Shown here: positions 5,302 to 45,539 of the stretch, piece by piece | How the letters are laid out: each line of letters opens with the position of its first letter | How positions within the stretch are numbered: position 1 is the stretch's first letter | Origin: Leptolyngbya sp. FACHB-261 | Lineage (GTDB): Bacteria > Cyanobacteriota > Cyanobacteriia > FACHB-261 | Direction of reading: 5' to 3' | Length of the DNA stretch: 64,000 nucleotides | Assembly (NCBI RefSeq): GCF_014696065.1 | Contig: NZ_JACJPL010000027.1 | Coordinates: forward strand, 806,001-870,000 | Made by a program: the position numbers and the translations under genes | Notes under the pieces: generated by a model | What the model was told of the DNA's origin: nothing | Seen by the model: only the letters and a program-made list of their open reading frames with translations | Databases searched by the model: none

Positions 5302-5625
5302 CTAGAAAAGGCCAGCCCGATCTAGCCCCAGCAGAATAGCGCTCAATAAACCCAGGCCAGCCATCAGTCCAGCAGGCATGAACTTACGCGTTTTCTGAAG
5401 TCGAAGTGCGAAGAATACCGCCAGGAACAACATCACGACAAGAGCGCCCCAAAAGGCTAGTTCCGAGGCAGCGGCTTGCATCAGCCAGGCAGCCAGTAGC
5501 AACAGTCCGCCGCTGATACTCCCTGCAATTAAAGAGGCTCGGCTAGCACTCTTGCGATAGCCCACGATACCGCCTACGAGTGACAGTAGGCCGTAAATAG
5601 CTGCAACCCAACTAGAAATGATCAT
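5302..5625 (-). CDS. TMEM14-family small membrane protein
   Basis: A 107-residue protein with four hydrophobic helices separated by short basic loops (GYRKSASRAS, RLQKTRKF). Gly-rich helices and the SLVGGIVGYRKS start match the TMEM14/UPF0136 family, which includes the plastid fatty-acid exporters FAX1-like; transport of fatty acids here is only a family-based guess. The ATG overlaps the stop of the upstream coiled-coil gene by four bases, so the two are translationally coupled and probably part of one transcript with the ParA gene. Confidence 0.85.
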   Translation of the reverse strand: MIISSWVAAIYGLLSLVGGIVGYRKSASRASLIAGSISGGLLLLAAWLMQAAASELAFWGALVVMLFLAVFFALRLQKTRKFMPAGLMAGLGLLSAILLGLDRAGLF

Positions 5626-7352
5626 CGGCGGCGAGTTAAGAAAGCAGGCAGATCAACTTTGACGGGAGACGCTGCCGAGGGTTGAGCAGGAGCAGGCGTG
5701 GGCGCAGGCGTCTCTGCCTTATCTGGAACGGGCTTATCCGGAGCGGGTTTATCTGGTTTATCTTTAGTGGCAGCTGGTCGTGAAGCCTCCTCTCGCTGGG
5801 GAAGCTCGACCAAATTCATGCCTGTGGCTGTCAAGACGACTTCAAGCTGACGGTTGAGGCGATCCTCTAGCACACGCTCTAGGGCCGTTTTCAACTGCAG
5901 CCCATGGCGTTGACTAACTAGAGAGCGATCCTTCCAGTGTTGGACTGCGGCGACCTGTTCACTGGCCTGCTGCGCTTGCATCAAAACTTGCTCCTGCAAC
6001 TCAGCCACCTGTTTTTCCAGGGCTTCTGTCCGTTGGCGGCTGGTGCCATGCTCCACCTCCAGTTCCCGCAGCGAATGTTGCAGGCGGGCTTGCAGTAGCA
6101 GTTGACGAGCGTGTTGCACTTCGAGCTCATCCCGACGGATCCGGGTTTGGTGCAGCTGAGCCTCGAGTTCTACTTGCGCCTTACGACTCTGATCAGTCTG
6201 GTTCTGAGCAGCTAGCAAAGCGGCTTGGAGTTCCTGCTGCTGCTCTTGCCACTGCTCAAATTCGCTGAGGCGGGCTTCTAAAGTTCGGTTATGAGCTCGG
6301 ACCTCGGTTAGGGTCTTCTCCAAAGCCCGGATCTGTTCGCCCTGCTGCTCACTCAGAAGTTGAGCTTCGGTGAGGAGGGCATTCAAGGTAGCCTGTTCGC
6401 CACTGTTGGCCTGGTGCTGAGCTTCCAGCTCTGTCTGCAGCGCCTGATTGTGCTGGCTTTGAAGGTCAAGTGCTTGTTGCAGTTCGGTCAACTGCTGAGC
6501 CTGCTGATGATTAAGGGTCTGCTGGTCTTTGAGCTGATTGCAGAGGGCTTGCAGTTGGGCTTCTAGTTGAGCAGTGTGATGGACAGAGCGCTCTGCGGAT
6601 TCCTGTGCTTGGTGAAGTGTACCTCTGGCTTCTGTAAGTTCAGCCTCCAAAGCAGCAATCGTGCGTTGATGGCGGTTCGTAAACTCCTGGGCTTCGCTCA
6701 GCAACTCTTCTAGAGCACGGGACTGCTCCTGGGCTCGGCTGTGCTGCTCCGCCAGTTGGCTCTCCAGTTGCGTGATTTTGCTGCGCTGAATCCGATTGGT
6801 CTCCTGAGTTTCAGCGGTCTGATGATCCAAAGCTTGCTGTTGGCGCACCAGTTGTACCTTCAGCTCCGCAATCGCCTGCTGCTGAATATGCGCAATTTCT
6901 TGGGTCGCCGCTAGGTGGGTTTCTAAAGCATGCTGGTCGCCAATTTGTAGCTTCAGCTCGGCCACAGAAGCCTGTGACTGATCGAGAGCCTGCTCCAATT
7001 GTCGAATGCGCTCCTCGCGGTCACGAGTTAGGGTCTGAAGCCGCTCCAGCTCTGAAGCTAGTGCCTGCCTCTCCTGCTGAGCCTGTTGTTCAACCTGTTG
7101 CAAGACTTGGAGCACTCGCTGTTGCACAGCCGTTTCGAAATCAACTGCTGTAAAGTCTTCTGGAGCAGGAGGCTCCTCAAACGTCAGCGCAGCTTCTACA
7201 GCTTCGAGGCTGGTATCAGGTGAAGCGGGTTCTGGAGGAGAGAGCGGCTGAGCAGGATTGGCTCGGCTGGTCTTACCCAGCAGCTTTTTCTTCTGTAAAG
7301 GTTGGCCATCACTGGCAGAGAATAGGCTACGGGCGAGGTTGCGTTCAGACAC
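5622..7352 (-). CDS. Long Gln-rich coiled-coil protein, ParA partner candidate
   Basis: A 576-residue protein, nearly all coiled coil. The N terminus is basic (KKKLLGKTSR), then a Pro/Glu-rich linker to about residue 75, then some 400 residues of heptad-rich Gln/Glu/Leu sequence, then a Pro/Lys/Asp-rich linker (repeats of PDKPAP) and the tail VDLPAFLTRRR. I chose the GTG at 7352, which overlaps the ParA stop and has GGAGG six bases upstream, over an upstream ATG at 7382 buried in parA. Basic N termini of ParA partners commonly stimulate ATPase activity; that this protein is the cargo adaptor is an inference from position. No family name is claimed. Confidence 0.85.
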   Translation of the reverse strand: MSERNLARSLFSASDGQPLQKKKLLGKTSRANPAQPLSPPEPASPDTSLEAVEAALTFEEPPAPEDFTAVDFETAVQQRVLQVLQQVEQQAQQERQALASELERLQTLTRDREERIRQLEQALDQSQASVAELKLQIGDQHALETHLAATQEIAHIQQQAIAELKVQLVRQQQALDHQTAETQETNRIQRSKITQLESQLAEQHSRAQEQSRALEELLSEAQEFTNRHQRTIAALEAELTEARGTLHQAQESAERSVHHTAQLEAQLQALCNQLKDQQTLNHQQAQQLTELQQALDLQSQHNQALQTELEAQHQANSGEQATLNALLTEAQLLSEQQGEQIRALEKTLTEVRAHNRTLEARLSEFEQWQEQQQELQAALLAAQNQTDQSRKAQVELEAQLHQTRIRRDELEVQHARQLLLQARLQHSLRELEVEHGTSRQRTEALEKQVAELQEQVLMQAQQASEQVAAVQHWKDRSLVSQRHGLQLKTALERVLEDRLNRQLEVVLTATGMNLVELPQREEASRPAATKDKPDKPAPDKPVPDKAETPAPTPAPAQPSAASPVKVDLPAFLTRRR

Positions 7353-8136
7353 CGAAGACCTCCAATTGGACCAATTCCTCAAGCCGACGGGTCGCTTCTG
7401 ACTCGGGCTTATGTTCGAGTATCGTTAGTCCCCGATCAAATGCCGTGCGAATGTCAGCACTATCGGGCACAGTCACTGGGCATAGGATATCGCCAAACAT
7501 TTCACGAGCGTGCTGGTAGAGCTGTCCTGTGTGGGAGGCGGCCCAGATTCCCCCGGGTAGATAGCGGTCGTCGAGCATGTTCACCACAACTCGAAATTTC
7601 CGGGGACCGATGTAGCTTTCCGCTTCCTGTATAAACCGGATTGTAGTCTCAGTGCACTGAAAATCAGTGCGGTTCAGGCGGGTTGGTAGCAGAACTTTAT
7701 CAGCAGGAACAAGGGCATTAGCAGTCAGCTCGTTCAGGTCACCGGGGCTATCGATAAAGATGTAGTCGTAGTGTTCTGAGACCCGCTCGATTTGCTTCTT
7801 GAGCACCATTTCCTTGCCCATCTGGATCGATGCCAGTTGGGTAACGGCTTCTGCCATAGAAACGTGAGAAGGGACGATATCCAGTCCCTTCTGACTCTCG
7901 AAGATTACGTCCTCAATATTGCGTTCAGGGCGTTTCTTGAGAAACGTCAGTACGGTGTCGTTCTCGTCTAGAGCTTCCAGGTTGCCCAGGAACAGGCTAC
8001 TCGCAGTCGTTTGCGAAGTCATATCGATCACTAGCACTCGCACGCCTCGACAGGCTACTAAGTGAGCAGTGCTACAGCAAATGGTGGACTTACCTGTACC
8101 ACCCTTATTATTCGTAAACGCGATGACCTTTGCCAT
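7345..8136 (-). CDS. ParA/Soj-family ATPase
   Basis: A 263-residue ATPase with the deviant Walker A KGGTGKST at residues 11-18, including the signature lysine K11 that marks the ParA/MinD superfamily, and the Walker B/switch block YIFIDSPGDLNE near 105-116. Such proteins bind nucleoid DNA or membrane as ATP dimers and position plasmids, chromosomes, chemoreceptors or carboxysomes. No ParB-like gene or parS site is evident. The next gene, in an 8-base overlap, is a long coiled coil, recalling McdA/McdB-type positioning pairs. This is not a plasmid context; housekeeping genes flank it. Confidence 0.92.
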   Translation of the reverse strand: MAKVIAFTNNKGGTGKSTICCSTAHLVACRGVRVLVIDMTSQTTASSLFLGNLEALDENDTVLTFLKKRPERNIEDVIFESQKGLDIVPSHVSMAEAVTQLASIQMGKEMVLKKQIERVSEHYDYIFIDSPGDLNELTANALVPADKVLLPTRLNRTDFQCTETTIRFIQEAESYIGPRKFRVVVNMLDDRYLPGGIWAASHTGQLYQHAREMFGDILCPVTVPDSADIRTAFDRGLTILEHKPESEATRRLEELVQLEVFGV

Positions 8137-8233: not shown

Positions 8234-8551
8234 CTATATGGAACCCGGCATTTCTGGTGAGGCAACGGTCTCTGTTAAGCCATTAACTGGTGAGATGCCC
8301 TCCTTTAGAGAACCGTTAACGCCTATTGCCCCGTTTAAGGACCAGCGATAATCCAGCTCTAGCCCACGTTGCTGGCAGTTGGCTTCAATCTGTTTCTGCT
8401 GCGCCGCTGCCTTGCGCAGAGTGATGATCAGTTGCTGAACTTGCTCTCTAAGGGAAGCATCGTCGCGCGCAGCGGCGGGCAAAGTTTGACGTTCTAGGAG
8501 ACGCAGCAGCAGCTCGTAGTGAACGTGCGAGGGAATAGGAATAGATTGCAT
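8234..8551 (-). CDS. Conserved cyanobacterial small protein, DUF5340-like
   Basis: A 105-residue protein. The front MQSIPIPSHVHYELLLRLL and the core LREQVQQLIITLRKAAAQQK followed by LELDYRWSLNG resemble a cyanobacteria-specific family that I recall as DUF5340; that name is from memory. It is largely helical, with a Gln/Lys-rich middle and a less conserved C-terminal tail. It lies 97 bases upstream of parA on the same strand and could share its transcript. Function unknown. Confidence 0.8.
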   Translation of the reverse strand: MQSIPIPSHVHYELLLRLLERQTLPAAARDDASLREQVQQLIITLRKAAAQQKQIEANCQQRGLELDYRWSLNGAIGVNGSLKEGISPVNGLTETVASPEMPGSI

Positions 8552-44990: not shown

Positions 44991-45539
44991 GTGAGCCAGG
45001 ATTCGCCTACCTTTGAGAACCTCCAAGCTGAGGTTGCTGGCCTAAAGCAGGAGCTACAAGCTAGGGACCTGCTCGTGCAACAGCTCAGCCAAGAGCTGTT
45101 CCGCTTGGTAAAGGGCAACACTGGCTTTCTGCCCAGCCCGGAGGTGTCTGAAAAGCACCTAGCTGAGATGAAAGTCCTGCGAGAGCAGTTAGCCCGGGTT
45201 GAAGAGCAACTAGAGTTTTACCAAAACCAAATAGCCAACCGAGACGAAGAGATCCAAGCATTGCGACGCTCTGTTCAGGAATTGACAGACCGTAGTCGCA
45301 CGCTAGAGCAGGTTGTGCAAGATCTCCCCGAGGTGTATCGCCGCAAGTTTGCTGAGCGGATGGTTCCAGTTCGGGAGAAGGTAGCTGCAATTCAGAAAGA
45401 AAATCGGCAACTATATGCCGAGTTGCAGAGCGTTAGCTATAGACTTGCTGTGCGTTCACGGCGCTCCGGTCGAGTCGAACTCCCCAACTTTCTACAACAG
45501 GGCGACAGTGTTGAACTGCCGACAGCGTCTCAAGGTTAA
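44991..45539 (+). CDS. Coiled-coil protein of unknown function
   Basis: A 182-residue hydrophilic protein. Residues 8-145 are mostly coiled coil (FENLQAEVAGLKQELQARD, later VLREQLARVEEQLEFYQNQI), with the C-terminal tail SRRSGRVELPNFLQQGD. The start is GTG 44991 with GGGAG upstream. It lies 17 bases before the next gene on the same strand, probably one transcript. No family name. Confidence 0.75.
   Translation: MSQDSPTFENLQAEVAGLKQELQARDLLVQQLSQELFRLVKGNTGFLPSPEVSEKHLAEMKVLREQLARVEEQLEFYQNQIANRDEEIQALRRSVQELTDRSRTLEQVVQDLPEVYRRKFAERMVPVREKVAAIQKENRQLYAELQSVSYRLAVRSRRSGRVELPNFLQQGDSVELPTASQG

Follow-up and report, generated by a model that had tools for sequence, protein, structure and literature searches.

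A ParA-type ATPase and a coiled-coil partner with an FtsZ-like tail as a possible link between chromosome and division machinery in some cyanobacteria

Our analysis of the window, the whole 64,000-nucleotide stretch of Leptolyngbya sp. FACHB-261 DNA, and of related genomes indicated that a ParA-type ATPase and its coiled-coil partner could constitute a two-component positioning system of some deep-branching cyanobacteria, with the partner coupled to the division machinery, a reading that we consider quite possible, at a confidence falling a little short of even. Judged from sequence, the pair suggests an undescribed connection of the chromosome to the division machinery. This was taken as the best explanation because the pair is kept in 20/20 genomes, an FtsZ-like tail closes the coil in 11 of the 12 genomes of families f1 and f23, SepF is single-copy, minC and minD adjoin the pair in one genome (G310), and Thr40 of the ATPase is invariant. 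Counted against it are the shortness of the tail, its divergence in family f5, the unconserved neighborhood, a second coil with an LDLPSF motif, and the many cyanobacteria that lack the pair. No description of such a system was found in the titles and abstracts of open papers, a scope within which the survey of McdAB-type systems (10.1093/molbev/msz308) does not fall.

Three genes lie on the minus strand of the window, an orientation left unstated in the original prediction. The parA-like gene (7345-8136) encodes 263 amino acids with the Walker A motif KGGTGKST, the coil gene (5622-7352) runs from a GTG start at 7352 to a stop at 5622 and encodes 576 amino acids (16% glutamine), and the TMEM14 gene (5302-5625) encodes a 107-amino-acid membrane protein of Pfam family PF03647 (Tmemb_14; E value, 1.3e-20). 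Their overlaps had been correctly recognized: the parA stop and the coil GTG start share 8 bp (7345-7352), and the coil stop and the TMEM14 start share 4 bp (5622-5625). The same -8 offset between parA and the coil was observed again in 8 of the 11 genomes of a Pseudanabaenaceae-like family (f23; -14 or -17 in the other three), so chance does not account for the 8-bp GTG overlap; in genus g5, from the second family, the offset is -4. Overlaps of 4 bp are a common arrangement in bacteria, and the one between the coil and TMEM14 did not recur in a TMEM14 search among the 20 genomes with the pair. Directly upstream of parA lies a DUF5340 gene (8234-8551, minus strand), which was not seen beside the pair in other genomes.

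A ParA search of 390 Cyanobacteriia genomes revealed 20 matches, including the window's genome, all with E values below 1e-86, and no other match down to 1e-30; most cyanobacteria are thus without the pair. The matches were confined to three families, namely, the window's own (f1, one genome), f5 (eight genomes), and f23 (11 genomes with the pair), the last of which is probably Pseudanabaenaceae. Five matching contigs in a named collection were labeled Pseudanabaenaceae, Oscillatoriales, or unclassified cyanobacteria. Within f23, none of the 26 genomes sampled from genus g23 has the pair, and the seven other genera have it. A search of 386 genomes of the phylum with a ParA profile at 1e-60 retrieved just the window's own genome and two from f5. 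The ParA orthologues in the 19 other genomes share 51-73% identity, and ParA was never seen without the coil gene, which stands 3′ of it in 20/20 genomes; in 19 of them the two genes overlap by 4 to 17 bp, and in G100 a gap of about 115 bp separates the ParA stop from the coil start. The flanking genes, inspected in neighborhoods of up to 9 kb, vary from genus to genus, indicating that the pair is the unit; for instance, the upstream neighbor is a divergent glgC in f5 and a gamma-carbonic-anhydrase-like gene in genus g98, and no conserved third gene was found beside the pair. Division genes were not recognized within these neighborhoods, with the exception of G310 (locus L041), where minC and minD lie divergent beside the pair, about 190-1960 bp upstream of the parA Walker motif.

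The ATPase belongs to Pfam AAA_31 (E value, 3.2e-35), and its AlphaFold2 model (pLDDT 92) adopts a ParA fold, for which the best solved match was Soj from Helicobacter pylori (Z, 34.8; rmsd, 1.7 over 250 residues), with Cyanothece McdA as a poorer match (Z, about 31). The deviant Walker A motif KGGxGK[ST] with its signature lysine is present, and K11 to T18 are invariant in the 20 orthologues. At position 40, the second aspartate of the IDxD(PQ) motif (the catalytic aspartate) is threonine in 20/20 orthologues (codon at 8017-8019, minus strand). In the alignment with Soj, Thr40 falls on D41, which is replaced by alanine in the deposited D41A mutant (8jmj/8jml); by motif, its counterpart in McdA is D38, the residue substituted in the McdA(D38A)-ATP structure. 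Seven other ParA-type proteins read from the same genome retain DxD at this site. An aspartate at the Soj D41 position is needed for ATP hydrolysis. As this residue is threonine in all members, very slow ATP turnover would be expected unless the partner supplies the missing function, and we infer that turnover in this ParA clade is slow or partner-dependent. The conservation of Thr40 and the tail of the coil had both been missed in the original prediction.

The Pfam scan identified no family in the coil, the length of which varies freely (153-576 amino acids across the 20 genomes). In its AlphaFold2 model (pTM 0.28, from which only the helix/disorder pattern was used), residues 1-68 and 510-576 are predicted to be disordered, and helices at 69-136, 147-315, and 327-509 would form a rod (residues 69-509; 5826-7148, minus strand). 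The presumed ParA-contacting end is the predicted disordered N-terminal segment VSERNLARSLFSASDGQPLQKKKLLGK (7272-7352, minus strand), which carries a [DN][LI]A[RSA][SN]LFS-like motif and a basic stretch; the motif recurs at the N terminus of other coils, often followed by basic residues, and is absent in genus g98. The proposal that the coil is an adaptor is a fair reading, since it partners ParA in 20/20 genomes and has a disordered, often basic N-terminal arm. The basic N terminus anticipated for a ParA partner is frequent but not universal, as the 40 N-terminal residues carry a net charge of anywhere between -6 and +9, depending on the genome. In an alignment of 12 coils, residues 441-495 form the best conserved block (5868-6032, minus strand), and a helical block near the rod end is recognizable in f1 and f23 coils (LExQvaELQEQvL...HWKeqSl...ALERll). 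The C-terminal peptide follows after a linker, which ranges in length from a few residues to over 100.

In the window, this peptide reads VDLPAFLTRRR (5625-5657, minus strand) and resembles the conserved C-terminal peptide of FtsZ, the own-genome FtsZ tail being GLDIPEFLQKRRPPR. Coils of this genome and of the Pseudanabaenaceae-like family end in [VI][DE]LP[AS]FLx[RK]x[RK], and the tails match [DE][ILV]PxFLx[RK] in 11 of the 12 f1 and f23 genomes, with aspartate at the acidic position in eight, glutamate in three, and both P and F present. The twelfth genome, G306, has ALPGFLGRR in another frame, where it was probably displaced by an assembly frameshift. FtsZ tails of the same genomes follow [GPS]xLDIP[DE]FL[QRK][RK]RR, with the G100 contig stopping short of the FtsZ tail. 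Composition-preserving shuffles of the tails matched the coil pattern at a rate of 4e-5. In f5, all eight coils have the ending xMP[SPT][FY][LM]LD, so that just MPx[FY][LM] is kept; P and F/Y persist, and the acidic residue adjoining the hydrophobic one and the basic residues are lost. The conserved C-terminal peptide of FtsZ spans eight residues, among which D, P, and F are invariant (PMC9939409), and the peptide crystallized in SepF of Corynebacterium glutamicum is DDLDVPSFLQ, with D, P, and F sitting in the pocket (PMC7118173). This SepF-bound peptide is identical to DLPSFLV of several coils at 5/7 positions and to DLPAFLT of the window at 4/7.

For the base rate of the motif, four genomes were scanned with a DNA pattern able to encode the tail string, and genome-wide matches were close in number to those of the reversed pattern, i.e., at chance level. 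Among open reading frames of over about 130 amino acids, only FtsZ and the coil had the motif among their last 20 residues in the four genomes (in G164, both were identified by coordinates), and one further coil in the window's own genome also did so. When the tail profile was run against the PDB, FtsZ was not retrieved and unrelated short matches scored, such as VDIPSFLVR in ribosomal uS4; a search with a single tail returned nothing. Given that FtsZ was missing from the profile search and that other short matches score equally, we regard the likeness of the coil tail to the FtsZ tail, which would point to a shared receptor, as suggestive. A second coiled-coil gene in the window (44991-45539, plus strand) adjoins a thioredoxin-reductase-like gene and encodes RVELPNFLQQ near its C terminus.

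Of 59 cyanobacterial genomes sampled, 47 encode relatives of the 44991-45539 coil, and those whose tails were read bear the LDLPSF type; because this second, widespread coiled coil carries a related motif, the motif may serve another partner. The tail would then be a short linear motif, common to both coils, for a cyanobacterial factor other than an FtsZ receptor, which we consider quite unlikely, as the two coils have only LDLPSF in common, the leucine after the phenylalanine and the basic residues, common to the ParA-linked coil and FtsZ, are usually missing in the second coil, and the latter may be an FtsZ-tail mimic too. An accidental FtsZ likeness in a pair that positions cytosolic cargo (a carboxysome, condensate, or enzyme cluster) as McdAB does is somewhat unlikely. 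Gene order, the glutamine-rich coiled coil with its helices, and the C-terminal aromatic motif are McdB-like; the signature lysine and the lack of a mid-protein extension are those of beta-McdA type 2 (PMC8262871); putative McdB-like proteins associated with other microcompartments have Tyr/Phe motifs at their C termini (PMC11321042); and short motifs of the tail kind arise by chance too. On the other hand, the tryptophan that is invariant within the last 20 residues of McdBs (PMC11321042) was found in 0/20 coils, on which ground McdAB identity was rejected and the predicted difference from McdA/McdB was borne out. The pair further differs in the threonine at the McdA D38/Soj D41 site and in its tail, which follows the FtsZ consensus in nearly all genomes outside f5. 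Carboxysome genes, with which McdAB is frequently but not universally associated, were not recognized by eye beside the pair in neighborhoods of up to 9 kb. The length of the partner, previously proposed as a mark against McdB, had to be discarded, since the coils vary so widely within the family and beta-McdBs reach 394 amino acids (PMC11321042). The same genome encodes a homologue of the crystallized Cyanothece McdA (C32:16119-16871; SGGQGKTT; 321 bits), with a 144-amino-acid partner ending in TLTWLD; as its 108-kb contig may be a plasmid and an McdA homologue was found at an E value of 1e-30 in only 10 of 26 genomes checked, it weighs little either way. At five f5 loci (L175, L177, L178, L180, and L181), an McdA-like ParA (SGGSGKTT) is followed by a protein of 244-289 amino acids that bears an N-terminal stretch, KKxPKKKLPTGP, and lacks a C-terminal tryptophan, constituting another ParA pair of interest.

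Partitioning of the chromosome or of an integrated element by ParA and a ParB-like adaptor would agree with the chromosomal Soj as the nearest solved fold. The ATPase and Soj also share the deviant Walker A motif. Unlike Soj, however, the ATPase has no ParB partner and carries threonine in place of D41 in all orthologues; the coil contains neither ParB nor another known domain in Pfam, no plasmid relative exceeds 29% identity, and the orthologues reside at unrelated loci. ParABS identity was therefore rejected, and a partition role appears very improbable. The original prediction had also treated the three genes as one system, in which ParA, the adaptor, and TMEM14 tie cargo to the membrane. 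Although the genes overlap in this window, TMEM14, single-copy in 16 of the 20 genomes with the pair and not found in four, adjoined the pair in none of the 15 other genomes having it, the nearest copy being about 8 kb off (G191). Synteny across cyanobacteria consequently held for the ParA-coil pair and failed for the third gene, and the conserved trio was rejected. The trio is a local arrangement, and TMEM14 is no part of the conserved system; we rate the three-gene reading as very improbable, although a lineage-specific role of TMEM14 is conceivable.

The preferred reading, coupling of the partner to the division machinery, has its closest parallel in the PomXYZ system of Myxococcus xanthus, which recruits the divisome to a nucleoid-borne cluster (PMC10307791). 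On paper, the pair would work most like PomXZ, with an FtsZ-tail-like peptide replacing PomY. Both have a ParA-type ATPase, a coiled-coil partner whose N-terminal arm is disordered, and a proposed link to the FtsZ ring. Unlike in PomXYZ, no conserved PomY-like third gene adjoined the pair in the scanned neighborhoods, and the proposed FtsZ link would be a tail-like peptide, whereas PomY is a condensate recruiting FtsZ. MipZ, MinD/MinC, and SlmA/Noc would share with the pair the task of placing FtsZ relative to the nucleoid or pole; these proteins act on FtsZ or bind its tail, whereas the coil would imitate the tail.

In the mechanism that we propose, the ATP-bound ParA dimer would reside on the nucleoid, the N-terminal arm of the coil would bind the dimer, the rod would oligomerize and act as a spacer, and the tail would dock in the SepF pocket that accepts the FtsZ tail, on ZipN (Ftn2), or at both sites. 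FtsA and ZipA are missing from cyanobacteria, which rely on SepF and ZipN; ZipN is a principal FtsZ membrane tether and SepF an essential Z-ring component (PMC6391411, PMC12288457). SepF is single-copy in 20/20 genomes with the pair, and the own-genome SepF matches solved SepF cores, including that of C. glutamicum. The pair could either move a divisome seed along the nucleoid, as PomXZ does, or keep SepF/ZipN from FtsZ over the nucleoid in an occlusion-like manner; given very slow ATP turnover, long-lived nucleoid occupancy would be expected instead of a fast ratchet. That a ParA without the catalytic aspartate sits on the nucleoid, its FtsZ-tail-mimicking coil captures SepF/ZipN, and the nucleoid thereby dictates the Z-ring site is possible, and we advance this specific form tentatively, with somewhat less confidence than the coupling to division as such. 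A whole ParA clade with threonine in place of the catalytic aspartate would make it possible to examine to what extent ParA systems require ordinary ATP hydrolysis. How cyanobacteria place the division plane with respect to the nucleoid is poorly understood, and a ParA partner with an FtsZ-like tail would offer a direct, testable handle on this question.
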